DNA from: Ctenosaura bakeri
Lineage: Eukaryota > Chordata > Lepidosauria > Squamata > Iguanidae
Assembly (NCBI GenBank): GCA_948474755.1
Contig: CAOLHI010000078.1
Location: 744,001-808,000, forward strand
Length of the DNA stretch: 64,000 nucleotides
Direction: 5' to 3'
A model generated the notes under the pieces. It did not search any database. It was not told the origin of the DNA and saw only the letters and a program-made list of their open reading frames with translations. Position numbers and translations under genes: made by a program. Shown here in pieces: positions 9,929-55,525 of this stretch; position 1 is the stretch's first letter; each line of letters opens with the position of its first letter.

Positions 9929-10779
9929 ATGGGGGGCAACCTCGGCTGTCACCGCTCCATCCCCCGAGACCCTTCCGACCTGTGCCACAGCCGCAAGTTT
10001 AGCGCGGCCTGCAACTTCAGCCACATCCTGGTCAACCAGGAGAGGCTGAACATCAACACGGCCACCGAGGAGGAGCTCATGACTCTGCCGGGGGTCACCA
10101 GGATGGTGGCCCAGAACATCGTGGAGTATCGGGAGTACATCGGGGGCTTCAAGAAAGTGGAGGACTTGGCCTTGGTGAGTGGGGTGGGAGCGGCCAAGCT
10201 GGAGCAGGTGAAGTTCGAGATCTGCGTGAGCAGCAAAGGCAGCTCGGCCCAGCACTCGCCCAGCTCCTTGAGGAAAGACCAGAATCTCGACCACCTTTCG
10301 GCCGCAAAGATCAACATCAACACGGCCACACCTGCTCAGCTCATGAGCATCCGTGGCATCACTGAGAAGATAGCGAATGGCATCGTGGAGTACCGCAAAG
10401 AGCATGGCCCTTTCAAAAGCATTGAAGACCTGGTCAAAATGGACTGTATCAACTCTTCCTTTTTGGACAGAATCCGACACCAGATATTTGCAGAGCGGTC
10501 CAGGCCACCTTCAACAAATACCAATGGTGGCCTCAATTTCATCGTCAAGCCTCACCCAAGCCCCACTTCTCTAAGCCTGCAGAGTGAGGATTTGGATTTT
10601 CCGCCGGGAGGACCGACTCAGATCATCTCCACGCGGCCCACAGTGGAAATGTTTGCAGGACTGAGGGACGGGAAGCCTGTAGTGAGAGTGGCTACTTGGA
10701 ATCTGCAAAACTGCTCTGTTGAGAAAGCTAATAATCCTGGTGTGCGGGAAGTTGTGTGCATGACCCTTCTGGAGAACAG
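9929..10779 (+). CDS. EEPD1: EEPD1, first coding exon (partial gene)
   Basis: This encodes residues 1-283 plus two bases of the next codon of endonuclease/exonuclease/phosphatase family domain-containing protein 1. EEPD1 is a 5' endonuclease reported to act at stalled replication forks and also to sit at the plasma membrane. The start MGGNLGCHRS has a Gly2 for N-myristoylation and a nearby Cys7. Two ComEA-like helix-hairpin-helix units follow, beginning LNINTATEEELMTLPGV (about 40-95) and ININTATPAQLMSIRGI (about 128-183), then a Ser/Pro-rich linker. The EEP nuclease fold opens at RVATWNLQN (about 253). The exon ends CTGGAGAACAG followed by donor GTATGG at 10780, a phase-2 junction. No stops or frameshifts. 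The rest of the nuclease domain lies in exons beyond the window. Confidence 0.97.
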
Positions 10780-11140
10780 GTATGGGGTTCTTTGCAAATG
10801 TGTTGGACAGTCATTCAGTATTTGTCTTTTCCCTGTTGTTCCCCAACCCACCACATCATTGTTGCTTGCTTCACTTCCTGCATATACATTCTGATTAGTA
10901 AGTTAACACCTGACAGTTAATTGATATCTGCTTGTAATCACTGCTGCCCATTGCTTTGTGATGACTTAAATCACACTCAGCCTTTGAGTGTGACAAACAA
11001 GGATAAACCTTAGGATAAAGTCACCAGAAGTCAATGTCAACGTGAAGGCCTTAACAACAAGAAAAGGATTTAAGCAAACAAAATATGTCTGAATAAATTA
11101 ATTGTGCCCTTTGATCTATAAGAACACGCGTCTGGAATGG

Positions 11141-17800: not shown

Positions 17801-19782
17801 ATGTAGCAAGGAGTGAACTTTTTGTGCTGAATACTGAAGAACACTGCAAGACCCCAAAGAAACCTGTATCTAACCACCTACTGAAATGAAGTCCATGTAC
17901 GTGTAGTAGCATCTGCTAATATTCCTCACTGGTTATCTGTATCTCATTTCCTTCCTTCCATCAGTTCCTCTCCCCTGTGGGGCATGGACTTGTCTTTTTG
18001 CTTATCGTATTCTATAAAGGACCATGTATTGCTGCAGCACTGTATAAAAATAAGACTGCTGTTTTTAGCACTGAAATTTTACCAGGTATTGTCCATGCTT
18101 TTTCAAGCTTGATTTCAGATTTTGGTTTTCCTTGGTTTTTGCAAAAGATGACAAAAAGCTGTGACTCCTAGATTGTTAAAGGTTGAATTTTGACCAGTTT
18201 GGCCAAATGTTGTGATTAGTTTGGCTAAATGTTGTGATTGCAGCATTCTGGAAAGATGCTAAAAGATTTGAATGTTTGGAGCTTTCCCAAGTACTTGTTG
18301 GACTGAGATGCATGCAGTAAACCCATTTACAAGCTCTCACTTCCCCAGGGATTTCTACCACTTTGCTCCAATAACTTGTGGTGAAAGAATTGCCATATTG
18401 AATATCCCTAAATTTGTTTGGTGTATCTGTTCTTAAGAGATACTTTGAAAAGCACTCATAGAAGAAAAGAAAAAAGAAAAATATGTCTCCTCTGTCCCTT
18501 TAATGTCCTCTCAACAGTCCAGGAAGTTAGGTACATGATCTGTGAGGCTGAGAGAAATTAAGCTGGCTAAAGGTTTTCTCCATGAGGCCACACAGACACA
18601 CACAGCCACCTAAAGAGTGAAGGGCAAAGTCCAGCTGTCTTGTGCATTCTCTTGCAAGAAAAATGGTTTCCATCAGGGTTTTAGGAGCCAGTTGTAGGAG
18701 TAAGCAATGTAGTCTGCCAACACATTAAAACTTCCCTTTACAAACTTGATGTCTAGAAATATGTAGGTGTATTCTTGTTCTAAGGCAAGGGCTAATATTC
18801 TCAGTCCATGGAGAGCTGCATTCTAAATACTCTCTTTCTTCCACCCCCATAATGGATGTTGAGGGAGAAAGAGTTCTGTGCATTGGAAACAGTGTGAATC
18901 TGGTGCTAATCCAACCACCTCTATGAAGTCTCAAAGCATCAACAAACACTGTATGTTTTTGTTGGTTTATTTTTGTATGCTGAGCTCTTTGGTGGCTTGG
19001 CAAAGCTGTTAGGTGTGTCTGTTTTGTTCCTTATCTCTTCCTTTATCTCTCTGTATATTTTCATGAACCCATTCTAATAATATACTGGAGTAAGTCCAAG
19101 ACAAACTCTGCTGTAATAAAAGAACAGGAAAAAAAGTACAGCCCTAATATGAGTTGAGTATACAGAGAAATGTGAGTTTACATGGAAATGGGTAACTTCA
19201 AAAGTCTGCAAAACATGATACATGAGTCAATGTCACCAATATTCAAGCCAGAGTGTATTTTCTATAATCCTATCAAAACGCAAAGAACATACTCAAAATG
19301 CATTCTGCCAATAGTAAGATTGGAAGAGGAGAAAATTATAATTATAATCTTTAAAGACTTGGGCTGTCTGAAGACTTTAAGCACTTTGGAGCAGAACTAA
19401 AGTGGCAGAGGGTTAATAATGAGAGGAGCAGTAGCCATAGGACAAAGAAAAGAAGCTGTCTTAGGGAACATAAACTAACCAGTGTAATCTATAATCATTA
19501 ACCAGTGCAATCTGTCCCATACTTCAGATAAGCAATTTACATGTTTCCAAAATTTTTCTCAGTGACCTTGAGCACTAGAGACTTGTTTGTTTATGGTAGT
19601 TCAGTCTCAGGAGATGCTACATTCTGGGTCAGGTGCCGTCATCCATGTTTGTATAGTGAAGCTGTTTCGATCTGCTGTTTTAACATGTAGCTGTGGGCTA
19701 TTGAGGTTGAAATCCTATGTGCACTTCACTTGTAAATCCTACTGAATTTAATGGGACTTGCTTCAGAGAAGATACGTACCAG
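14896..19782. other. intronic stretch without recognised elements
   Basis: AT-rich intron. Short frames here (for example 17080-17421 and 18725-19003) have no recognisable domains and no splice-site support. Fragments such as GAAATAAATGGGACTTTGACAT near 16960 and AATTTAATGGGACTTGCTTC near 19745 resemble very old dispersed repeats. Confidence 0.5.
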
Positions 19783-35345: not shown

Positions 35346-37874
35346 ACTCATTTCATATATATATGAAATCCACACATTTTTTCCTTTTTTTCACAAATGA
35401 TGCTAGTACAAAAGTGCTGCTTTGAGATCACCAGGTACCAGACAGTATATGAATGAGAACAAAGCTGAAGTCTTACTTCTGTGTTTGCCTGGTTATAGTT
35501 TAGAATGAAATTTGACTTATCGTGACAGAAGGTTATGGAAGGGCAAGAGTATTTTTTGCTTTTATTTTGAACTGCTTTGTTGTACAAATAATACTGTACA
35601 TGGGCTTCCAAAGTACAAAGAAAATTGCTTTCTTTTCATAATATTCCAGATAGGCTTTCCTTATAACTTCCTTGTATTCAGTTATATAATTTTTTACTTC
35701 CTGGGCTTTTTGCAGATGTATGTATGCTAACAGAATTGCTCATATGGAGCAGTGCCCTCTCTTGTTGGAACAATTTAGAAGTATATGCTAGAGTACAAAG
35801 TCTTTCATCTTAGACCATGCACTTTTAGTGACTTACTTACTAGATCTGAGCCAAATGCAAAAGCCATTATTTCCCATAATATTGTGGCAGCATAGTCTAA
35901 CTTTTCATAAACCACCCACTTTTTCTTAAAAGCACTAAATTTACACTGTGTGAACATTAGCACATAACAGATCATTTTTTAAGTTAATCATATATATATG
36001 TGCATGCCTGTGGAAGCAAATATTAAGCACAGTATAACATGAAGTAACTCACGTATAAAACAGCATGTTATCATTGTATTTCATAAAAACATTTAAAAAC
36101 AACAGGGATAATTTTGTTTAAGGGATACTGGGCTTGTTCCCTTCCCTGTTGTTCTTGCTGGAGTAGCGTAATGTCTTCATGGTCATGGTGGAACCAGTGG
36201 GTGCGGCATTAGGAAAGGGTGGTCTGGAAAATAGTGCCTTAATCCTGTTATCCCCAAACTGTTGGTTCTATCGCAGTCTTGCTTCGTTCTATCTACCCTA
36301 GGAGTTCTTGCATGAGTATTATCAAATGATCTTCATGGGACTTGCATATTGAAGCCTTCTAATGTAGGCTTATATCTTTTTCTGTTAACACATAAATATT
36401 AGATAATCTTTTAACAGCTTACTATATCTTCACGCATTGCACTGTAACTTTTACCCTATTCCTCCCCCCAGCCCTCCTCTGTCTTTTTCTGATGGTAATC
36501 ATGCTAATAAATCTTGCACAGCCATTGCCTCCTGAGTATTCTTGAAATGTTTTCTTGGAACAATGATTACTGGTTACCAATCCTTCCCCCTCCCCTCCAA
36601 AAAATCTTCAAATTAATAGATGAGAACAGGAGCAGAAAGGCATAACAGAATTTCTGCTTTATAGGCACTTAAGTATGGAACAGCCATGGTGGATACAAAT
36701 AATGAGATAGAGTGTTCTAACTGTTCCCTGTGAGGAGGGAATGAATCTATTGTTGGGATCAGAAAAAGAATTCTTGTTTTAATTCTACTTTGCGTGTCTG
36801 TAACTGGTACCTCTGTGGCTAAATTACATGCTTGCTAGTAGGATCTACTGTGTTAGGTTTGCAAATAAATCCATCCCAAAGTAGGCACAAGAGATGCACT
36901 GGTGTATCTGTTCATGCATCTATATTACTCATTTTTGGTAAATCATTTTTCTGTAAGGAAGAAGTCCTACAACTATTTTCCATCTTACAAAATCTTCCTG
37001 GCCTGAGAAGCTGGATAGAATTCTTACTGTTCACAATCAATATTTCTTTACTGGGTAAAGGGAAAAAAGTGTCTTAATGTATCTCAGTTTCCAGAAATAT
37101 CCTGATCTATAGTGTTTACCACTAGCATCATTCACATTAAAAGAGGAAAACTCTGTTTAATTGTTTATTTGCATTATGAAAGAGCTCTACTAGCAGTCTA
37201 TTGGCTTTTGAATTCAATTCAAGGTTCTCATGCTGACTTCCAAAGCCCTGAACAGCCTGGGGCTCAAAACTCTGCAGAAGCACCTCTTCCTGTTGTAACT
37301 TAAAATCATCAGGGTAGCCTGTTTTTCAAATATGAGAGTATACTGTGTGTCAGCAAGGAAGCTTTCTTGCATGTGAAACTCCCAGGTATAAAATGTTCTG
37401 GGGACTGATGTGGACCCTTAACAGTTTCAGAGTCATCACAAAACCTTTTTGTTTGCCCAGACATTTTAATAGATTTCTCTTGTCTCTTTTCACTGTCTGA
37501 TTTACTTTCAAACAAGGGTAAAGAGGCTTGCAGAGGCTTGATTCCATTTGTAAATAAGGTGCATGGCAGTGAATGTCTTAAGGGAAAACTGTACCAGCAC
37601 ATTCAGCAGTAGGGGCACTGGGGGGGGGGCTGCAGGGCCTTAGGGGCACCCAGTGAGCTGCATGTTACTATGAGGCAACATATTGTTACATCTTTGATTA
37701 TGGAGTTATTACTGATTATGGATTATGGAATTATTATTATTCTTTTAATCAAATTTTATTCTTTCAATGATACTCATACTCCAGCTTAGTATCTGTAAGG
37801 ATAAAGGGTGGTTTTAAATGTTTTAATCAATAAAATGGTGAAATTTTAGCTGCCTGCTCTGCAAATAAAACCAT

Positions 37875-38184
37875 TGTTGCACAAAAATAGAGATCGAGAC
37901 CCATGGAGTGGAACTTCAAAGTTTATTCAGCTGGCTGGGCCTCAGTGGAATCGCTTCCAAAGACAGAGCGCCCCCCCTTCATCAATTCACAACGCTTTAT
38001 ACAATTTTTGCACAGTGTTATCTTTAGTATAGTGTCATCATGTTCACATAAGGCACCAGATGTGTTGTACAAATCTGATTGGTTACTCTACATAATACAA
38101 TAGACCATTCTGTGACTGTGCATTCTTTAATGTTGCAAGTAGAACTTCTACTCTACTTTGTTTCTTTTTCCCTATTCCTCCTCA
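37875..38184 (-). repeat. 3' LTR of the provirus
   Basis: 310 bp, in provirus orientation TGAGGAGGAATAG to TGCAACA. It holds a CCAAT motif (seen as ATTGG near 38078), a TATA-like TGTATAA region, and an AATAAA polyadenylation signal (seen as TTTATT near 37921) about 45 bp before the end. It matches the split 5' LTR throughout. Confidence 0.92.
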
Positions 38185-38197
38185 TTTCCCCCCTTTT
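38185..38197 (-). promoter_or_regulatory. polypurine tract
   Basis: AAAAGGGGGGAAA on the minus strand directly abuts the TG of the 3' LTR, the usual primer site for plus-strand DNA synthesis. Confidence 0.88.
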
Positions 38198-38739
38198 ATG
38201 CTAGATTCTACATGGCAATTTAAGCATAATTACTTGGTTTGGGCCATTAAGCCTTGCATGTGTGAGCTTGGCCCATGAGAACATACCCAGCAATCACTGA
38301 CATTCAGGGTGCTCAAGATCTGATTGACTCACTGGTGAAACCGATTCACTTCCCAGCCTCCCTGACGCAACATCACTCCCATCACAAGCAACAATCCCTA
38401 TATCCACATATCATCCAGACCTGCAATACCACTGTCTGAAGTTATACAATATATAACCAAGGCCTGCCGCTGCCCCTATACCTCCTCCAACCCACAATAT
38501 TGTTTCCCACATTCAGGATCTGGCCGTAAGTAGAGCAGTGCATCCCTGGTAGCAACTGCAGTAGGGCCTTGTCCCAATCTTCTTTCCTCTCCAGATGGGG
38601 ATCTGGCCATGCGCCGGGTGTTCAGCTTCCCAGAACGTGAACACAGCAAAGCCTAGTGCCTGTCTTCCTTACTGCTTTCTGGTGGTGATCTTCATCTTCA
38701 AGGGTTGCCCTATGATAAGGGCAGCAGTCCAGTCAGTAT
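38198..38739 (-). other. provirus 3' region, env not recognisable
   Basis: About 540 bp between the integrase end and the polypurine tract. A broken frame contains a short hydrophobic GGGIGAAAGLGYILYNF-like stretch that could be the last piece of an envelope transmembrane protein, but I cannot confirm it. A complete env would need over 1.5 kb, so env is deleted. Confidence 0.5.
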
Positions 38740-39620
38740 GGGCCCTTTTTATCCTAGTGTAATGCACCCAAGGCATCTACCCTGCTACCTTCACTGTGGT
38801 GGGAGTTGTCAGTAAGGCCCCCTCCACCCGGGGCTGAGTAGCTCTACTTTCCAATCCTTCACCCATACTTCATCTCCTGGTTGGAAGGGATGTGCCTGAG
38901 TCTGTAGGAAGGGAAGATGCTGCTCTAACGTTTACTCCCTCATTTTACTCAGGGGTTTCCCTAAGGCGCTAACCTCCTCCTGTAGGGCCATATTCCCCAA
39001 TTCCTTTGTATCTTCCCTCAACCCACTCAAAATAGTAGGGGGTGTCCATACATCAACTCGAAAGAGGACCGTGCTGTAGTTCGATGTGGGGTGCACCTTA
39101 TCCTGAAATGGGCTATGGGTAGAGCACCCAGCCACTTCAATCTTGTTTCTTGGAACAATTTGGACAACTGTATCTTTAGGGTTCGATTCATCCTTTCCAC
39201 CTTCCCTGAACTCTGGGGTCAGTAAGTACAGTGTAGCTTCCAGGCGATTCCCAGAGCGGTGGTTAATTCTTAGATGATCTTGTGGACGAATGTGGGTCCA
39301 TTATCTGAGCCTATATGATGTGGCAATCTGTGTTGGGGAATGATATCTTGGAGCAGGGCTCGTATGACCTCCCACGTTTTCTCGGAGCGGGTGGGGTAAG
39401 CTTCCAGCCATCCAGTGTAAGTACAAACAAAGACTAGGAGGTAGTGATAGGCTCCGGCTCGGGGCAATTCAGTGAAATCTACTACCATCGACTCGAAGGG
39501 GCTGCTTCCTTGATACTGTTGTCCTTCCGCCATCTTAGGTCCCTGTCGGGGATTAATTTTGGCGCACAGCTGACACCTTGAGGAGGCCAGGGCAGCAAAT
39601 CCATGTATCCCATTAAGATA
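38740..39620 (-). pseudogene. retroviral integrase remnant (pol)
   Basis: The frame begins inside the zinc-binding domain (CQLCAKINPRQG supplies the Cys pair; the His pair is missing because the NuMA segment joins here). The catalytic core follows with aspartates in VVDFTELPRAG and IGSDNGPTF. After a stop just past HKII (about 39270) the third acidic residue is present in SSGKVERMNRTL. The C-terminal domain follows in pieces (LTTPTTVKVAG, PWVHYTRIKRA) with further stops. The IN protein joined viral DNA to host DNA; this copy is inactive. Best family match by motif order and spacing is gammaretroviral. Confidence 0.9.
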
Positions 39621-41285
39621 GACTTTCCTTTTCCAGCAGCTGCCTTTGCATGATGGACATCTCCTGCACCAGGCTGTTGACCAGGCTGGCCTTCCTCTTG
39701 GATTCCTGGAGGCACCGTGACATTTGCTCCTTTGAGCTCTCCTCCGGCTTGCCCGAGGTGCAGAGGTGCACAGAGAAGCCAGCTCCTTCTCGGCTCTCGA
39801 CACGGCCTCTCTGCTTTGGGCCAGTGGCTCTCCCTTCTCAAGGAGGTCCCTCTTCAGCTTCTCCACAGCAACCTCCTGCGTGAACCTGGAAGCTCCAGCA
39901 GCTTCTCCAACTCAGAGGCTCGCTGCTTGCGCTGCACCACCTACTGCTTTACAGCTTCCATCTCCATTTGCCGCTCTTGCCCCGAGGCTGCCACGGCCTT
40001 CTCCAGTTTGGCAAGGGTGCTCTGGTGCTCCTTGCACTGCTGCTCCAGCTTCCCCATCTGGCCGTGCAGTGCCTCACACTCCTTCAGCTGTTTCTCATAG
40101 AGCTCCTGGCTGGAAGCACACTCCCGTTCCCGAAGGCGCTTCTCCTCCTCCAGGTTTTTCAGGGAGAGGTCCTTGGAGTGCACCAGGGACTTGATACTCT
40201 TCAGCTCTGCTTCTTGGGTCCTGGCCACCTCCAGGAAGCCCTGCAGCTCATTCTGCATTTTGGCTTCCCTCTCCTTCAGTGCCTCCACGGAAGCCAGCTC
40301 CCCTTTCAGCTTGCTGATGGTCTTCTGCAGGTCCCTCAGCTTCTCGCTGTGAGAGATGTTCTTCAGGCGCAGTTCCTCCAGCTCCCTCTCTTTCTCCTCA
40401 ACCAGCTCCTGGGCTCTGGCCACTTCTTCCTGGAGGCCAGAGACCTCCACGCGGTGCTCATTGGTGAGGTTCTACAGCTGGACCTCCAGCACTGCCTTGC
40501 CAGCCTTTTCTGTGGCTAGCTCTGCCCTGGCTTGCTCCTCCTCCCCTGCCAGCCGCTTCGCTTCCTCATCGTGCAGAGCTATCTCCCGTTTCTGCTGCGT
40601 GGCCTCCTCTAACTTGCTCTCCAGCGACTTCACCTGGGTAGAGAGCTGCTTCACTTCGTGCTCCTTCTCCTTCAGGGAAGACCTGATACTGGAGAGGCTC
40701 AACTGGTCTTTATGGCTATGCTCACCCAGTTGCTTCACTCTGGCCTCCAGCTCTGCTCTCTTGAGTTTCTCCTCGACCAGGTCTCTGGTGGCAGCTTCAT
40801 GGGCCTGCGCTGCTTCACGCCCACCATTTTTTGCTTTTGCTGCATTCTGGGCCGCTTCTTGGTGATCAGCCGCTATTTCCTCCTGCAAAGAGGCAGTCTC
40901 AGCTCTGAGCTTCTCCTTGGCACCCTCTGCCACCTTGGCCTGGGAATGTGCAAGAGACAAACTGGCCTGAAGCTCAGTCAGAGCTTCTTCATGTGTGGTA
41001 CTCAGGTGCCTCATCTGCATTTCCACTTCTGCCACCTTCACTTGCTCAACCTGCAATTTCTGCAGGAGCTGCTTCCGATCCCTGCTTAGGGCTTGGACTT
41101 TCTCTTCCAGCCTCCCGCACTCACCTGTCTCCCCTCTGGCAGCAGAGGACAATTCTGCCAGCTGCTGCTGAAGCTCCAGGACTTTGGTCCTGGATTCTTC
41201 CCCAGCTGCTGCATCTGACCTTCCAGTGCCAGTCTCTTGGCCTTCTCCTCATCCATCTCCTGCTCCTTCCTCTTCCCTGCTTAGA
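39621..41285 (-). pseudogene. NUMA1: NUMA1 central coiled-coil segment captured inside provirus
   Basis: Some 550 residues of Glu/Lys/Leu/Gln heptads run without hydrophobic or viral motifs between gag and integrase. They are collinear with the central coiled coil of NuMA, the dynein-binding spindle-pole protein. Diagnostic stretches are ELEARVKQLGEH, ATEKAGKAVLEVQL then NLTNEHRVEVSGLQEEV, DLQKTISKLKGELA, MGKLEQQCKEHQ, and at the end SKRKASLVNSLVQEMS then RQLLEKE. Relative to the human protein about 180 residues appear missing between the first two motifs. Breaks: stop at 40472-40474 (CAG to TAG type), stop at 39941-39943, frameshifts near 41195, 39870 and 39760. No poly-A or target duplication flanks the segment. 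In mammals this part of NUMA1 is one large exon, so absence of introns does not prove an mRNA origin. Confidence 0.87.
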
Positions 41286-42480
41286 GCCACCCTTCTGAGT
41301 GTTCAGTGCGGCTGCCAACAACTCCACCTTCTTATGCATTCGCCTATCCTTCTCTTGTTTCTCTTCTTGATCTCTATTCACGTACACCTTCTGGGCAATC
41401 TCCAACAGTTGACTCAAATTCATACCTGCAAATCCTTCCTACTTCTGAAGTTTCTTCCTAATATCAGGATAACTTTGGGGCATGAAAGCCAAGTTCACAG
41501 TTTGCTGTTTACCCGGATCATCAGGATTCACAGGGGTAAACTGCCTGTAGGCATTAAATAGCCTTTCCAGTTATGTCCCCGGAGGTTCGGTGGGCCCCTG
41601 AAGAACCTCCAAAACCTTGGACATGTTAACAGGTCTCTTCATTCCTTCCCTCATGGAGCATAGCCGTTTGGTCTGGGTTATTTGGATCCCAACCTGGATT
41701 GGCTAAGGGAACTCTCCTCCTCATCCATTGCTCAGGGTTTGCCTCTCGAAGGGGGGGATGACCTGTTCTGGGCTATCCGTTCGGCGTGTTGAATTATCCT
41801 TCTCTGCTCTTCAGTAGTGAACAAGGTCATTAACAATTGTTGGCAATCTTGCCAATTTGGAATGTGGAAGGCCATGATACTGGAGTAAGGTTCTATTATT
41901 TCCTGAGGCTTATCGGTATGAGTAGCATAGTGTGTCTTCCAATTAAGGAGGTCTGACGTGGTGAAGGCAGTATATTGATAACTTTGCACTCGCCTGTAGC
42001 CTCCTTCTTGCTGGGCATCGGAGACCAGCTGGCTATCCTGTCTAAGTGGAGCCACTACCTCCTCTTCATCCCCTTCCTCTTTGTCTTGGGCCTCACAAAG
42101 GGGCTTCTCTTGAATTCTTTTAATCTCCTTGGCCTTTATCTTTGGCCCAGTTCTGAGATCATAAGCATCAGATGGACTAAGGGGGGTGGATCCCCCTTTC
42201 AGGTCTGACAAATCTGGATATAGAGCAGGGGGTGATGGCGGCAATGGTACTTTTTCTGTGTTTTTTCTTTCTTTCATCAGCACAATAACTTTACAGCATT
42301 GTTCCTTACATTTTGCAAGCCGGGGGGGATTCGGTTACTACTATGTCCCATGCATCTATATAGGGATACTGGTCTGGGTGTCCAGGGTTCCTTGCCATCA
42401 CTGCATACACAGCCCCACCTTGAATGATGGCCATTCTACCTCACACAAGCTTCGCAGCCTGTGATAATGGGGCTTCCCAT
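41285..42480 (-). pseudogene. retroviral gag remnant (matrix, linker, capsid)
   Basis: On the minus strand: a matrix piece (PDQYPYIDAWDIVVTE, about 42390-42330), a Pro-rich linker (PLPPSPPALYPDL), the capsid N-terminal part with FTTSDLLNWK and DCQQLLMTLFTTEEQ (41732-42283), then in another frame the major homology region (EVLQGPTEPPGT, a TAA stop at 41571-41573, LERLFNAYRQF) and the capsid end GFAGMNLSQLLEIAQKVYVN followed by a charged helix (about 41423-41290). The order and motifs are gammaretroviral. The nucleocapsid Cys-His box is missing: the frame changes to NuMA just where NC should begin, and gag and NuMA are now in different frames. Confidence 0.9.
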
Positions 42481-43873
42481 TATCTAGACTTTGGCTGAAG
42501 GGGGATACTTCCTCTTCAGGTAAGCCAAGGGTTAATGAGGTGTTGGGGTTAGGTTACACTTTTTATTGTGGGCCAGCCTCACAAGTCATGGGGAGAGAAT
42601 TGCCCAATCAAGGGGAAAGAAGTGGGCATCTTTGAGATGCTTTGAGATGCTTTGATGGAGAAGTTATAAAAATCCTTGAGAGGCCACGTGGGAGAGAAAC
42701 AACAACAACAAAACCTCCTGGAGATAAAATCTGTGCCAGTCGCAGGCTGCTCCAAAGAGTACCTATTGCCAGATACCCAGAAAAGAAGAAGAGCCCTTCT
42801 CTTCCCCCTCTTGCCTCAGTGAGACTCAATGGGGTGCCAGTCTGCAACATTCACTTCATCAGTAAGTACTTAGAGCAAATTCCAGCCAGCTCTGACTGGT
42901 CAGCACTGACTGTAGAAAGTAAGGGGGGAAATGCCAACTGCTTACTCAGAAGCACAATGACAGAGTTTTGCAGCTTTAAAAATTCATCTCCCCTGTAAAT
43001 GCAGGAAAAGGAAAATCCAGAAATCACTCATTCCTAAAGAGTGGCTTTGTATGACCAGGGCAGCCATCCTCTGCTACCAAAATTCCCCCTCTTTCTCCCC
43101 CCTCCCTGCTACAAGGAGGAAGAAAAAGGGGGAAAAAAAAACCTCGAAAGCTGGTTTAGACAAACAATGCTGCTTTGCCCACTCCCCCCTCCTCCCTCTT
43201 GCTTGATTCCTTGCAGGACACAAAGGGACACAGAGAGAGAAAACCGAGAAGCCTGCTTTCTGTAATTTAACCCTTAACTCTCCAGTCTAAACCCTTTCTT
43301 GAAGTTTTTCAACATACATTGGAGTGGTGTTTGTCGGCTACCGCCCCCACCCATTTTCCTCCCCATTGGTAACAACACACAGTAGGCTGGGGGGGTTGGA
43401 CTGTAGGTAAGGGGTCCCAACAGTCCAACACAACAGGGTTTAGACAGTCACACACACACACCAACCTAGGCACCTGGACTCTCAACAGTATGCACTAGGA
43501 ATTGCGATGCCAGTCACACGTTCTTTCACCCAAACAACACGGCCACCCTCCTTTTCCCGTTCTCCTAAGGAATCCTGCGGTTTCAGTAGCCCCCCTCTGG
43601 GGCCACTCTACTAGGGCAGGTCCCAAGGGGGTGATCAAGCCCCTTTTCTCCCCTTTTCACACACTTTGCAGGGAGGCACTTACCTAAGGCCGTGTCTATG
43701 TTGAATTTCCAAACCATCGTGGGTTCCCAAGCTGGCAAACTGATCCCTTGGTCCAGCGCCCTTACGAGGAGGACCGTCTGACTAAGCGTTGGGGGCGCTC
43801 AAGGTCCCTGTTGGTGGGGCACAGATACCGGGGAGGCGGTGGCCGCTTAAGTGGGCAAAAGGCCGCTCAGATC
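42481..43873 (-). other. provirus 5' leader
   Basis: About 1.4 kb between the primer-binding site and gag matrix, long for this virus type. It is rich in C/T runs and short CA repeats (near 43450) and has no coding match. It would include any packaging signal; I cannot point to one. Confidence 0.5.
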
Positions 43874-43891
43874 CCAGATAACAAGCCCCCA
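43874..43891 (-). promoter_or_regulatory. primer-binding site, tRNA-Pro-like
   Basis: Minus strand TGGGGGCTTGTTATCTGG starts five bases (TTTTC) after the LTR end TGCAACA. The first eight bases TGGGGGCT equal the complement of the tRNA-Pro 3' end used by many gammaretroviruses; later bases are diverged. Confidence 0.75.
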
Positions 43892-43896
43892 GAAAA

Positions 43897-46386
43897 TGTT
43901 GCAGAAAAATAGAGATCGAGACCCACGGAGTGGAAATTCAAAGTTTATTCAGCCAGCTGGGCCTTGGTGGAATTGCTTCCAAAGACCGAGCGCTCCGCCT
44001 TCAATTCACAACACTATACAGTTTTTGCACAGTGTTATCTTTAGTATAGTGTCATCATGTTCACATTTTTTTATTTTTTTTATTTTTATTGATTGTAAGA
44101 AAAAAAAGCAAAACAAAAAAGTAAAACACCATGTGATACATATAATAGTGAAACAAAGAAATTTCATCAAAAACAAGCTTACATTATTATTTCTCTCTAA
44201 TACCATTACAATCATAAACTTATTCAGCTTATTCTATATCATACTACTTGTATACTTTTGTTACCTATCTCTAGATCTCATTCTCATTATACTCATTATT
44301 ATTATAATAATTTCATTCTTAATTCTATATTTTTCCCTTACATTTAATCTATTGCTATTACTAAATATAATCTTATTACTTAACATATCAAACTATCTCT
44401 AAAGGTAAACCCACTCCCCAAAGCCGATTATGTTTCAACTTACCTTTTTTTTTGTTTTACAAAAAAATTAAACAACACAAATCCAATATAAAAAATATCC
44501 CACATAATTAACAAAAAAGTGAATAAACCCACCCCCAGAGCCAACTTTTTATTGAATCCAGTTTCCAAAATTGCCATTCTTCTTGTGAAAGGGTAGCTTT
44601 ACCATCTCTTATCAAAGCTTTTTCCAAAAATATTTTCCAAATTTCTTCAAAATCATACCCTTTTACAAGACCTTTCATAAATCTAATTCTACAAGTTAAT
44701 TTATCATTAATTGCAATTTTCCACACTTCTTTATACCATTCCTCTATTTGAAGTTTTTCATTTGTTTTCCATTTTTTTGCTATTATTAACCTCGCTGCAG
44801 TGAACAAATTTGTTATTAATTCCTTCATTACCTGGGCACACTCAACCTTATTATATATAGACAACAACCCTATATTTGGACATATTGGTATCTCAACTCC
44901 TATTATCTCTTTTCTCTCTTTAAAAACCTTTTGCCAAAATTCCATTACCTTATTACAATTCCATCACATATGCATATATGTACCGATTTCTTGACATCCT
45001 CTCCAGCATAGTCTTGAATATTTCTCATCTATCTGATTTAGTTTTACTGGCGTCAAATACCATTTCCAAACTATTTTATAATAATTCTCTTTTATTCTTA
45101 TAGATAATCTTTTTAAATGACGCTGTTTCCAATTTTTTCTCCATTCTTGTATATCTATATTTTGTGATGTCTCTTCCTCCCACATTTTTCTAAGGTAATC
45201 CTCTTCTTGTTCTTTTGCCAATATTTTATATATTTCACTTATAATACTCTTTAATATTTCATTTTCTTGCATATTTTTTCTTTGAATAATAATTTGTTCA
45301 AATTTAGTATATTCTTTAAAATCTTTAACATATCTTTTCATACTCTTTGTCCATAGCTCTAACTGTATGTAATTTAACCAAGATATTTTAGTTTCCTGCA
45401 ATCTCTCTTTCATTCTATCTTTATTAATCATTATTTTCATCCAATCTTTTAATCTATATATTTTTTGTTTTTTATTTCTTTCTCTATTATTTCTCTTAAA
45501 TTTGTTGGAAATTTTTCCATCATTACTATTGGAGTTAATGTTGATATATTCGGTAACAATTTTCTTTTATTTTTCTTCCATATTTCTATTATATTTTTTA
45601 TAAAAGGATTTTCTATCTTTTCTATTTCTTTCTTTGAAAAATTCCTAAAAAATATATTTTCCAATTTCATCTCGATATTCATATCTTCTATCTCTAACCA
45701 TTCTAAATCACCTTTTCCTGAGACTCCTTCTATAATATACCTCACTTGATTTCCATAGTAATACCATTTTAAATTTGGAAGTCCTAGGCCACCTTCTTTT
45801 CGACTTTTGTACCAATATTTCTTGTTAATCCTCACTCTCTTATACCCATTACAAAAATTATTTAATAACTTTTGCCACTCTTTTAATTCTTCCTCTGATA
45901 CTTTTATTGGTAACATCCTAAACAAAAAAATAATTTTAGGTAATATTTTCATTTTTACCACTGCTATTCTTCCAAACCATGATAACTTTATATTTTTATA
46001 ATCCTCTAATTTCCATTTAATTTCTAATTTTAATTTCTTGTAATTTTTTTCCTGTAGTCCTTGTAAATTTTTTGTAATATCTATTCCTAAATATTTAATT
46101 GATTCTTTTACTTTAAGTAACATTCTTTTATTACTTACCAAATTTTGTACTTCTTCTTTAGTATAATTAAACAACATTATTTCTGATTTGGCCCAATTTA
46201 TTTCTAATCCTGCCTTCTCCCCAAACTCTTTTAAAGTCATCATGTTCACATAAGGCACCAGATGTGTTGTACAGATCTGATTGGTTACTCTACATAATAC
46301 CATAGACCATTCTATGGCTGTGCATTCTTTAATGTTGCAAGTCGAACTTCTACTCTACTTTGTTTCTTTTTCCTTATTCCTCCTCA
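43897..46386 (-). repeat. 5' LTR of the provirus, split by L1
   Basis: The two LTR parts are 43897-44066 and 46252-46386, together about 305 bp and colinear with 37875-38184. The break is the L1 insertion with a 16-bp duplicated target. The AATAAA and CCAAT motifs are kept. Confidence 0.92.
44067..46235 (-). mobile_element. 5'-truncated L1 inserted in the LTR
   Basis: The 16-bp target duplication GTCATCATGTTCACAT is perfect at 44051-44066 and 46236-46251. A poly-A tail (poly-T at 44067-44095) lies at the left. It carries only the C-terminal third of ORF2, from after the RT palm (GLEINWAKSEIMLF, SIKYLGIDITK, RIAVVKMKILPKIIFLF) to the C-terminal Cys-rich motif (CWRGCQEIGTYMH). Stops at about 45449, 44961 and elsewhere make it dead. 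5' truncation is typical of target-primed reverse transcription. Confidence 0.93.
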
Positions 46387-47597
46387 CCATTGGATTGCTG
46401 CATTATTGATTGAGTGAAACCTTTTTTTACAATAAACTGGCAAAGAGGTGCAGAGCCTTCATTCTGTAAATGGTTGTTGTCTGACTGTCAGCTAAATGAG
46501 TATCTGGAATTATGGAGTTAGGGGACTAAGACTTGCATTGTAAGCTAAGGTTGTTATAAACAACAGACATGGATTTCTGTCACTTCCAGACTTCTCCCTG
46601 CCTCCCCCACCCTTGTTGTTTTCCTTACCATCAAGTCTGAAGAAGTTGGCTGCACTCCTTATTACACTCCTTAAGTGTTTTGTGAGAAAATGGGTGTTTC
46701 TAATATAAAAGCTATGCTGTCATTTTAGTTTGTATGAACAGGGTGCTCCCTCCCCATGTATATTATTTCTCCAAACTTGGAAATCCTGGTCTGAATGCAA
46801 TTAAGAGATTTTAATCAGTGCAGAGAAAGCCTGTCCTTGGTTTTGTTTTTTAAACATTAACTGACTAGCTTTTCCCTGTTGATGTATCTAAAAACAACTC
46901 TTTCTGCTGAGATTTTGACACCAGCAGGGTGTGAGTTCAGCCACCATAACCAAGCCCACACATGCAAGCTTAATCTGTCTCTTACACTGCAGCACAGAAT
47001 GTAACAAGCACCAGTTTCTTGCTGTAAGAAGTATTTGAAACATAAATTTAATCGTTTTATACTTTTCTGAATAGAAGAAAGCATGTCTCTGTTGAATAGC
47101 AGAGAAAATGAACTATACTATCCATCTTATTTATCTCAAATAATATTTTTCTCTGCAAGCTTTCTTTTTTTAAAATTAGGAAAACATGTCTATCTTGTGT
47201 TTGCATTTAACAGAAATTCTGGCCTGCAGAATGGAAATTATCAGTGGCATGCCTGAGTAGAAGGTGGAACAGTGTGCTAACAACCCCTCCCACTGCACCC
47301 CACATCCACAGGGCAGTTGCTGTAAGGGAGAAAGAAAAGAAGACACAGCCACTGTCAGCGGTACTAAGCAGCCAGACTTCTCTCTTCTGTCTCAGCTGAC
47401 ACAGCTGAGACACCAACACCTTTTAGCTGCTCCTCTCTTAGGATTGTTCTCCATTTCAGAAGGGCCATTCAGAACTAGCGCTTGAGCTTGTTTTTCTCTC
47501 TCTCCCTCCCTATCCCTTTTCCTAGGGTACACCATGCCTTTCCTAGAATGTAAGCCCCAGAAGCTGTCATACTTTTATTGATTTGTAAGCTGCTCAT

Positions 47598-51786: not shown

Positions 51787-54700
51787 TCATGACTTTCTCC
51801 AATTCTGAAGGAACAAGTTTACTGGGGCCCATTCTCTCTCTATTTTTTCCTCTGTTTGTCCCCTTAATCTTTGAGTCAGGTTATCTGCAAGTTTCATTTC
51901 GTCCAATTTTTGGATCCAGGATTCAATGTTTGGTATTTCTTGTTTTTTCCACAACCAAGCATATTCTAATCTGGCAAGAGTTATCATATACAACAGGATC
52001 TTAGCATATTTTTTCTTGATATTAGAGTCTATCATATGTAACATATTTAATAAGTATATTTCAGGTTCTTTCACAAATTCGATTTGTAATATTTCTTCTA
52101 TTTTCTTGTGTATATCGTTCCAGTATTTTCTTGCTTTTTCGCAGGTCCACCAAATGTGGTATGTCGTGCCCACACCCAATTGACATTTCCAGCATTTCCC
52201 TAAGCCAATCTTATAAATCTTTTGAAGTTTACAAGGGGTCATGTACCATCTATGGAAGCTCTTCAAGTAATTTTCCTTAATATTTTGAGCTGCTGTGAAT
52301 TTTTGTGTTAGCTTCCAGCTTTCTTGCCAATGTTCAAGCTCTATTGTATGGTCAATGTTCTGAGCCCATTTAATCATTACTTTTTTTACTGTCTCTTGTA
52401 CAATAGTAGTGACTTGTATAGTTTAGTGATTATGTGTGCCGGGTTTTCTCTTAATATTTTGATTATTTCATGTTGTTCTTTCAAATTAAAGCTGTATAGT
52501 TTCTGATTGGTGTGGAATCTCTCCATTAATTGTCTATGAGGGAACCAATTCAGAATTATCCCTTCCTCTTCCAATTCTGTTCTGTCCTTGATTTTTGTGG
52601 TTCCATTTATTTGTTTAATAATTAGGTCCTCATATCTAATCCATTTTCTTGTAGTTTTCCATTTTCCATAAAACGCTTCTTGTGGGGAGGCCCACCCTGG
52701 TATCGAATTTATGAATACTCTTTTATAGTTGTTCCATACTAGCAGGAGAGATTTTCTGATGTAGTGATGTGCAAAGTCTTTGTCAATCTTAGCTTTGTCA
52801 TAAGATAAATAAGCGTGCCATCCCATTCTTGTATCAGCTCCCTCTAATGTTAACAATCGTTCATTACTTAAGTTTATCCAATCGACAATCCAGGAAAGTG
52901 CGGCTGCTTCATAATAGGTATAAAAGTCTGGGACTCCTGCCCCACCTCTTAATGTTAAATCCGTTAGTATTTTCCAACTAACTTGCAGTTTCTTCCCTTC
53001 CCAAACAAATTTAGTTATGTCTTTTTGCCACTGCCTAAAAGGTGTTTTGTTACTTATAATAGGTAGATTTTGAAATATAAACATCATTTTTGGTAGCATG
53101 CTCATTTTGATAGTAGCTAATCTTCCCGTAAACGAAAATTTCTGTTTTGTCCAATCTTCCAATTCCTTCTTAATTTCTTTCCATTTTTTTCCATAATTGT
53201 TTTCATAAAGTTCATTATTTTGTTTCAAGATCCAGATTCCTAAATATTTAATTTTCTTAGTTATTTTATAACCTCAGTTAATTTCTCTTCTTCTTTTTTG
53301 GTTATATTTTTAGTCAAGATTGCAGTTTTTTCTTTATTTGCCTTAAATGGTTCACCAAATTCATTCATCAGGGTATTAAGCCGGTTAATACTTCTTAAGG
53401 GGTCATCTAAGAACAGTGCAAGATCATCGGCAAAGGCTTTCAATTTGAATTGATATTTTGAAGTTGTAAGGCTTTCACTTCTTTATCATTTCATATTGCG
53501 TTATTTAATATCTCCATTGATGTTCTAAACAAAAGCAGAGAGAGTGGACATCCCTGTCTCGTCCCTTTCTTAACTGTAATTGAATTTGTTTTTTCTCTGT
53601 TAATTATCAGTTGTGTTGATTGGTGTTCATAGATTGCCTCTATCCAAGCCATGAATTTAGGACCAACTTCCATCTTCCGAAGTACCACTTTTAAGAATGG
53701 CCATTTGAGCGTGTCAGATGCCTTTTCGGCATCTACAAATATCATTGCTAATTTCTTTTCGTTATGGTTCTCGTAATGCTCAATGATATTGATTACTGTT
53801 CTTATGTTGTCTCTTAAGGATCTTTTTGGAAGAAACCCGTTTTGATCTTTGTGAATTATTTCTGGAAGTACGCATTTTAGTCTGTCAGCTAATATCGCTG
53901 CAAAGATCTTATAGTCGGTATTTAATAGGGATATCAGTCGGTAATTTTTCACGTCTGTATGATCCTTACCTTCTTTAGGAATAAGCGTTATATTTGCCTT
54001 ATTCCAAGATTGCAGCATTCCAGTATGCAAAATTTCATTAATTGTTTTTTGTAACAGAAATGAAAGTTCATATTCAAATGTCTTGTAAAATGCTGCCGAA
54101 AAGCCATCTGACCCTGGAACTTTGTGTTGTTTCAACCGCTTTATTGCGTCAGTTATCTCAACCATAGATACTGAACGGTTGAGTATAACCTGTTTTTCTT
54201 CAGAAATCTTCTTTCTGCTGCTTTTTTCCAAATATTTATTTTTTCTATCTCCTCTTGCGAGGGTGGTTTTGCATTAAAAAGTTTTTTGTAGTACTTGAAA
54301 AAAGTTTGTTTGATGCCTTCTTGGTGTGTAATTTTTACATTTCCTTTTTTGATCTCCAGGATCATTTTCCTTTTTTTTCTTTCTGCAATTTATATGCTAG
54401 CCATTTTGATGGTTTATTGGCCTGTTCAAAGAACGTTTGCCTTGCCTGCCTGATTTGGTGTTCTGTTTCCTGAAGGTTCTCTTCATTTAGTAATAATGGT
54501 AGCTGTTTAAATTCCTTAACCAACCTTCCATTTGTTGGTTTTTTTCTTAGTTGTTTTTTTACTTCCTTCATTTGGTCTAGGATTCTTTGCATTTTTTCAT
54601 TTTTCTTTTTCCTTATTTCCGAGTTCCATTTTATAAAGAGACCCCTGAATACCGCTTTGCTGGCATCCCAAGTCCACTTCATAGCGACATCTGGTGTAGT

Positions 54701-55525
54701 ATTTTCTTGAAAATAATTATTGATTTCTGTCCTTGCTCGATGAACATATTCCTCTTTATGTAGTACCTCTTCATTTAATCTCCAAAATCGCTTGGTTACT
54801 TTTTGTTTCAACTCTATTTGAACGGGATTGTGATCAGAACATGGTTTAGGCAAAACCTCCATTTTGATTGTTTTACATAAAAGATTTTGGGATGCTAAAA
54901 TGATGTTGATTTGAGACATTGTCTTATGACGCTCCGAATAAAATGTGAAGCCAGGGGTATTCCCGTTTTTATATCTCCATACATCTAAAAGAGAAAAGTT
55001 GTCCATCATTGAGAAGAAACTTTTTGGCAGCTTCCCGTTGTTTCGCATCAATTTTTTCTCGGCTGATCTATCATTGACAGGATTAATAACCCCATTCATG
55101 TCCCCCAGAATCACGACACTATCTTGATTGGAGTTTTGCATATAGTTAATGAGTTCCTGCTGTATTTTTTGAAAGAAGTCTCCTTTTGCTTCGTTTGGTG
55201 CGTATACACCAATGATCAAGATTTTATTCAAGGAAGTATTAATTTCGACGCCAATATATTGTCCATTTTTATCTTTGAACATTTCTTTTGCAGGATATTT
55301 GGTATTTATGTAGATTATTACCCCTCTTTTCTTTTTCTCAATGGTTGATGCGAAACACTGAGCCAATTTAGGGCTTCTTACATATTTCAAATCTTTAGTT
55401 CTTATTCTTACTAACTGCAGACTAATAATATCAAGATGTTGTTTTTCTAAGTAATGGAATATTTGTCTTCTTTTAAAGTCCGAATTTATCCCTTTAACAT
55501 TCCAGGATTGGATTTTGATTGTCAT
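51787..55525 (-). pseudogene. L1 ORF2 (endonuclease and reverse transcriptase), inactivated
   Basis: Starts MTIKIQSWNVKGINSDFKRR at 55525. The APE-like endonuclease keeps VILGDMNG and CSDHNPVQIEL, but where LQE is expected the copy reads IISLQLVRIR, so the catalytic Glu is lost. The RT domain has KVPGSDGFSAAFYK, YRLISLLNTDYKIF, KKGTRQGCPLS, and FADD in KAFADDLALFL. The end has the Cys-His motif CWKCQLGVGTTYHIWWTC. Frame breaks lie near 54362, 54220, 53490, 53445, 53245 and 52380. The intact product would be about 1,240 residues. Confidence 0.92.

Follow-up and report, generated by a model that had tools for sequence, protein, structure and literature searches.

How does part of a host mitotic gene come to stand where a retrovirus should have its polymerase genes, did the resulting hybrid spread as a virus, and has the host-derived part been of any use to it? 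These questions are raised by a 64,000-nucleotide stretch of Ctenosaura bakeri DNA (contig CAOLHI010000078.1, positions 744,001 to 808,000; the window hereafter). There, a minus-strand provirus with two long terminal repeats (LTRs) and a 4-bp target duplication occupies 37875-46386 and contains 1639 bp of the NUMA1 coiled coil at 39625-41263. Most known cases of retroviral host-gene capture come from tumour viruses, in which oncogenes are picked out by strong selection. The present capture can be traced through dozens of copies, and the same genome also contains the source gene, relatives lacking NUMA1 and both breakpoints. The captured NUMA1 is seemingly unselected, so that the neutral rate and the route of gene capture by endogenous retroviruses (ERVs) become testable, and such hybrids can found lasting germ-line families. 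Our genome searches covered the window's own assembly (1.9 Gb, 8006 contigs), and all genome counts below are lower bounds. The NUMA1 hybrid has been copied and has spread in the manner of a virus; it is neither a one-off accident nor an assembly error.

Identity and source of the NUMA1 piece

Between 41280 and 39621, five distinct open pieces, spread over three frames, are collinear with human NuMA, and each scores above all 200 of its own shuffles (the human query is 97% identical to ape and human NUMA1 database entries). A protein search with part of the window yielded 84 proteins at E<=1e-10. Every named row among them is NUMA1, the remainder being a few entries called 'hypothetical protein' and two without a name. 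The best match of the captured piece is NUMA1 of Sceloporus undulatus (74%, E 2.1e-159), to whose residues 684-1232 it approximately corresponds. A preliminary description of this DNA had put the coiled coil at 39621-41285, between capsid and a point midway through the integrase zinc domain. The ends prove correct to about 4 and 22 bases, and the placement holds, with Gag_p30 upstream and rve and MLVIN_C downstream. A PDB search with one NUMA1 piece gave no match, nor did scans of viral contigs with a single piece each of NUMA1, integrase and gag.

Alignment to NUMA1 of the same species, a check that the description had proposed, found the host exon, which is 92% identical in DNA to window 41263-39625. 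The source gene (locus L010) has a 1246-codon open stretch matching Sceloporus NUMA1 residues 354-1510 in one piece, and the captured stretch falls wholly inside that single exon. The lack of introns is therefore uninformative on whether RNA or DNA was captured, and lends no support to an mRNA origin. In a protein tree, the captured copy and host NUMA1 are joined at 100% support, inside a group with Anolis and Phrynosomatidae (100%), and the branch lengths are 0.014 for the host, 0.097 for the captured copy and 0.058 for their common stem. The gene was thus taken from the lineage of this very host, long after Anolis and Phrynosomatidae had branched off; the grouping of host NUMA1 with these lizards agrees with the attribution to a reptile virus. 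The captured copy has altered 6 of 71 invariant NUMA1 sites, a count that is not distinctive because some living squamates reach 7 of 79; Phrynosoma, turtles, the bird and the crocodilian were excluded from the first such count.

Junctions, integrations and NUMA1-free relatives

The NUMA1 query, with 40 of its 92 candidates scored, gave at least 63 matches spread over 39 contigs, which we group, by a division of our own, into at least 21 window-like loci (group A), at least 17 diverged loci (group B) and one host gene. The junction test covered group A apart from C75 (L087), a locus also left out of the substitution counts below. No net indel was seen at the 5' junction in any of the 20 loci tested, nor at the 3' junction in any of the 19 where that part exists. 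Both are base-exact in 19 of 20 window-like loci, and at C4666 an insertion parts the two ends; other proviruses with both junctions, the second check proposed, thus exist. A matching 4-bp duplication lies beside an LTR-like start in 11 of the 14 other two-LTR copies fetched (12 of 15 with the window), counting C19 and C1478, whose LTR-like starts differ somewhat. The 12 tetramers are all different from one another. In the pieces fetched, C420, C1560 and C462 have one LTR and C18 has none. Since the copies have their own, differing duplications, they arose by separate integrations.

An integrase DNA search scored 40 of 196 candidate places, and 24 of these 40 have no adjacent NUMA1 match among the matches listed. 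The two of these that were read, C1810 and C543, lack NUMA1 and have RNase H-like sequence (RNase_H, E 9.4e-5 and 0.0025, under the Pfam cut-off) followed by the integrase zinc region. A search with the gag end gave 41 matches (40 of 146 candidates scored), and the gag ends of four NUMA1-free relatives continue, in three of the four in an unbroken frame, into what we take to be a CCHC-like zinc knuckle, with Y for H in one relative. The breakpoints of the relatives thus hold nucleocapsid (NC) on one side and RNase H/integrase on the other. At least 15 NUMA1-free loci have both gag and integrase matches, with a spacing of 2.82-2.88 kb in seven (C3513, C54, C5184, C2368, C3371, C1095 and C3138), 2.66 kb in C375, 3.67 kb in C4897 and 1.2-1.8 kb in six (C6019, C1155, C543, C1686, C3161 and C1242). 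These last six are perhaps another kind of pol-deleted element.

At the 3' join, C543 and NUMA1 are identical at 16 of 18 bases, a degree of identity equalled by 2 of the 483 18-mers of that piece. Where the two sequences differ, 18 of 19 copies follow NUMA1 at the first position and the virus at the second, which puts the switch point inside the homology. At the 5' join, C6019 and NUMA1 have GCAGGAGA in common (8 of 8 bases). Short homology at both joins is what template switching predicts. Taken with the shared junctions and the separate integrations, it upholds the earlier diagnosis of a NUMA1-transducing, gammaretrovirus-like provirus.

Diverged copies, a second captured gene and coding state

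Group B retains parts of the NUMA1 exon (14-304 and 659-1085, several copies less), and the five copies inspected have the order NUMA1, an extra segment of about 500 bp, integrase. The segment lies at 2142-2646 in L074 and at 1920-2424 in L028 (both in minus-strand reading) and is also present in L076, L078 and L082; that of L074 is 87-92% alike to the other four. It gave no Pfam match above cut-offs in the frames tried, and is perhaps a third captured piece. A match to linker histone H1 (tblastn at E<=1e-4, some matches short) occurs upstream of NUMA1 in three group A loci (C4130, C1560 and C947) and in 11 of 17 group B loci. In L003, a piece of the H1 globular domain lies at 1133-1378 on the plus strand (Linker_histone 4e-16; PDB Histone H1.2 3e-31). 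H1 in L003, L009 and L025 follows gag 42025 and precedes 41345, a position occupied by capsid in the window; the window provirus gave no H1 match at the same threshold. With H1 and NUMA1, the host genes captured by this ERV group thus number at least two.

In the window, NUMA1 is out of the Gag/NC frame at the join, and zero net indel implies the same mismatch in 20 loci. The window copy is disrupted by two stops and three frame changes; its two stops compare with 2.2 expected since integration, and its NUMA1 frame may have been open when it integrated. In 20 group A copies, private changes comprise 331 nonsynonymous (N), 155 synonymous (S) and 28 stops against 22 expected, and changes common to some of the copies comprise 126 N, 55 S and 7 stops against 6.8 expected; both sets are neutral. 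Of the covered group B copies, 8 of 9 have a stop at one NUMA1 codon and 9 of 10 at another; neither codon is a stop in any of the 19 covered group A copies. A 4-bp deletion is present at all 17 group B loci. A further stop, found at a CGA codon in both groups (8 of 20 copies in A, 4 of 17 in B), is probably recurrent. Divergence between A and B is flat over the codon positions (.155/.127/.155), and group B spread while carrying its shared stops and frameshifts.

These data bear on the possibility that the NUMA1 piece, and histone H1 with it, benefited the virus as protein, at least initially. The N:S ratio is indeed low for changes close to the group A root (13:25 for majority and 8:11 for fixed changes), and the possibly open frame of the window copy points the same way. 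However, the root changes include host NUMA1's own constrained change, and the neutral changes within group A, the flat A-B divergence, the broken group B copies and the frame mismatch with Gag all speak against such a benefit, which we regard as very improbable. The captured part was found neither in the Gag frame nor under selection, and NUMA1 is best read as a passenger. On the same grounds (frame, neutral divergence and the spread of group B with broken NUMA1), the proposal that a Gag-NuMA product had a cellular effect is not sustained.

Origin of the hybrid and other features of the window

To account for the content, junctions, copies, integrations, breakpoint content of the relatives and neutral divergence that were directly observed, we propose, with high confidence, a helper-dependent, host-transducing ERV family in which two template switches took about 1.64 kb of host NUMA1, now a passenger. 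Reverse transcriptase (RT) would have switched from viral integrase to NUMA1 within the 18-base near-homology, and from NUMA1 to viral sequence at the 8-base homology at the start of NC. NUMA1 would have replaced as much as about 2.85 kb, comprising NC, protease, RT, RNase H and the first part of integrase, as these are arranged in the NUMA1-free relatives. The hybrid, to judge by the window copy, would have kept LTRs, leader, gag through capsid and part of integrase, with no protease or RT. It would then have been packaged, reverse transcribed and integrated many times, its enzymes presumably supplied by related NUMA1-free proviruses. Both the switch at the RNA level and the mobilisation in trans by a helper are steps that we infer.

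Several observations weigh against this account. C4431 is without a matching duplication. In C994 and C4194, whose LTRs are incomplete, the only matching 4-mer adjoins a start unlike that of an LTR, so that chance 4-mer matches do occur. At the 3' side, the second relative, C1810, differs at 4 of the 18 bases; at the 5' side, the full 8-base homology is present in one of four relatives, and the other three match less well. Most relatives count as NUMA1-free among the matches listed, and the helper is putative. In 9 of the 17 group B loci, compared with the window, NUMA1 40617-40201 differs by 11-15% and a shorter 5' piece by 11-20%, whereas integrase differs by 21-25%. A NUMA1 piece less diverged than integrase is unexplained by one capture and simple descent, and recombination between backbones is an assumption that we add: the cassette may have moved from one backbone to another.

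The difference in divergence would also fit separate captures of NUMA1 by groups A and B, as would the finding of 0 derived residues common to A and B relative to the host and outgroups. Yet four group B loci (L028, L078, L080 and L082), in which gag extends to 41293 and adjoins NUMA1 exon base 45-47, join gag and NUMA1 in the same neighbourhood as group A, and 0 sites favour an older capture by B; we hold separate captures to be rather unlikely. Capture within a single exon, which leaves no splice trace, means that the hybrid may have originated at the DNA level. A provirus near or in NUMA1 would have recombined and then undergone deletions, and reverse transcription would have copied only the later product. 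DNA end joining also uses short homology, but two DNA joins would be required, whereas copy-choice yields homology at both ends, and we consider this origin quite improbable. The probability that NUMA1 entered one provirus after integration, by retrocopy or gap repair, or through an assembly error is negligible: both junctions are base-exact at 18 further loci, which, C4431 excepted, have their own target duplications where readable, and no LINE-type (long interspersed element) duplication lies at the NUMA1 ends. Both post-integration insertion and assembly error are rejected by the shared junctions. The sole 10-bp repeat found is inside NUMA1 and present in the host gene too. A LINE-made processed pseudogene was likewise discarded, no target duplication and poly-A having been found around the NUMA1 part. 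As an extension of the template-switch account, the lineage might have been loaded repeatedly with host mitotic and chromatin genes (the NUMA1 rod, H1 and perhaps the 500-bp piece), with the cassette recombined between diverged backbones and once gaining something from it in the germ line, as protein in an early phase or as RNA matching host NUMA1 and H1, before becoming a passenger; we consider this a long shot.

Acute transforming retroviruses have a gag-onc layout, and retroviruses with two captured genes exist, for example avian erythroblastosis virus. Like the latter, some copies here combine two host genes, H1 and NUMA1, in one element; unlike it, they are endogenous with no transformation known, and the window copy has NUMA1 only. 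Among the matches listed from the open-licence PMC literature, we found no published NUMA1-carrying retrovirus. The closest published case found is that of the crocodilian ERVs CrocERV29 and CrocERV31 with KIT-ligand and nectin3 captures (PMC4299795). These too are reptile ERVs with host-derived genes, there mRNA-derived, in several copies. Their open reading frames (ORFs) are reported under purifying selection or conserved, and lie between pol and env or replace env, whereas the partial NUMA1 rod of the present family takes the place of most of pol, is out of the Gag frame and diverges neutrally. As in acute transforming retroviruses such as those with v-src and v-sis (PMC13297096), host sequence lies between viral genes, pol and env are lost and a helper is needed, but here the spread is in the germ line, with no sign of a selected or fused protein. 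LTR-mediated retrocopies arise by template switching, which joins cellular sequence (there RNA) into an LTR element at microsimilarities; unlike those retrocopies (PMC5408686), the chimera here became an amplified family with sublineages.

The window provirus lies between identical CCAT target duplications (37871-37874 on the left, 46387-46390 on the right), and all its parts read on the minus strand. Its 3' LTR (TGAGGAGG...ACA) at 37875-38184 has genome matches of 82-100% identity (40 of 208 candidate places scored). A stretch seen in the sequence at 38185-38200, adjoining U3, is presumably the polypurine tract, and the region from integrase to the LTR follows at 38201-38780. Integrase covers 38780-39624, beginning midway through the zinc domain and running to the C-terminal domain, with stops and one frame change (rve 4.4e-12; MLVIN_C 5.9e-7, at 29.5 bits against a cut-off of 29.2). 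Beyond NUMA1 are a broken gag p12/capsid region at 41264-42283 (Gag_p30 5.5e-13 and, for a second piece, 2.9e-12; PDB capsid p30 8.5e-14) and weak matrix remains at 42309-42553 (Gag_MA 0.0011 and 0.08, each under the Pfam cut-off). The capsid-tail piece gave no significant PDB match; its reading frame is supported by the NC continuation in the NUMA1-free relatives. The leader at 42554-43896 includes a primer-binding-site-like stretch at 43871-43891, which we take to be proline tRNA-like. The 5' LTR is split into an inner part (43897-44066) and an outer part (46236-46386) by a LINE insert at 44067-46235 with a 16-bp duplication (44051-44066 and 46236-46251); being inserted inside the LTR, the LINE is younger than the provirus. 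Protease, RT, RNase H and env gave no Pfam match in the provirus pieces scanned (38201-38780 in some frames only), the sole RT-like match within 37875-46386 being a weak one in the LINE insert (RVT_1 0.0021, ORF 45449-46303). Rfam gave no match at the gathering threshold. A 4-bp target duplication is a mark of gammaretrovirus-like (class I) ERVs, and the provirus combines it with a p30-type capsid and a murine leukaemia virus-type integrase C-terminal domain.

The LTRs of the window copy are 0.072 apart (21 of 307 sites), and those of 12 other copies 0.014-0.078; C994 (58 LTR sites, Kimura two-parameter distance 0.017) and C4194 (182 sites, 0.022) are not among these 12 copies. Rates of 0.8-2.2e-9, which are assumed, would date the window copy to 45-16 million years ago. 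NUMA1 terminal branches in a DNA tree often exceed half the LTR distance, so that the copies do not follow a clock.

Elsewhere in the window, a Helix-hairpin-helix coding exon, probably of EEPD1, lies at 9929-10894 on the plus strand (HHH_3 1.9e-42), and a tRNA-Ser-like gene with a GGA anticodon at 18214-18300, also on the plus strand (ARAGORN). A broken LINE with endonuclease and RT pieces (RVT_1 8.8e-24) occupies 51787-55525 on the minus strand.
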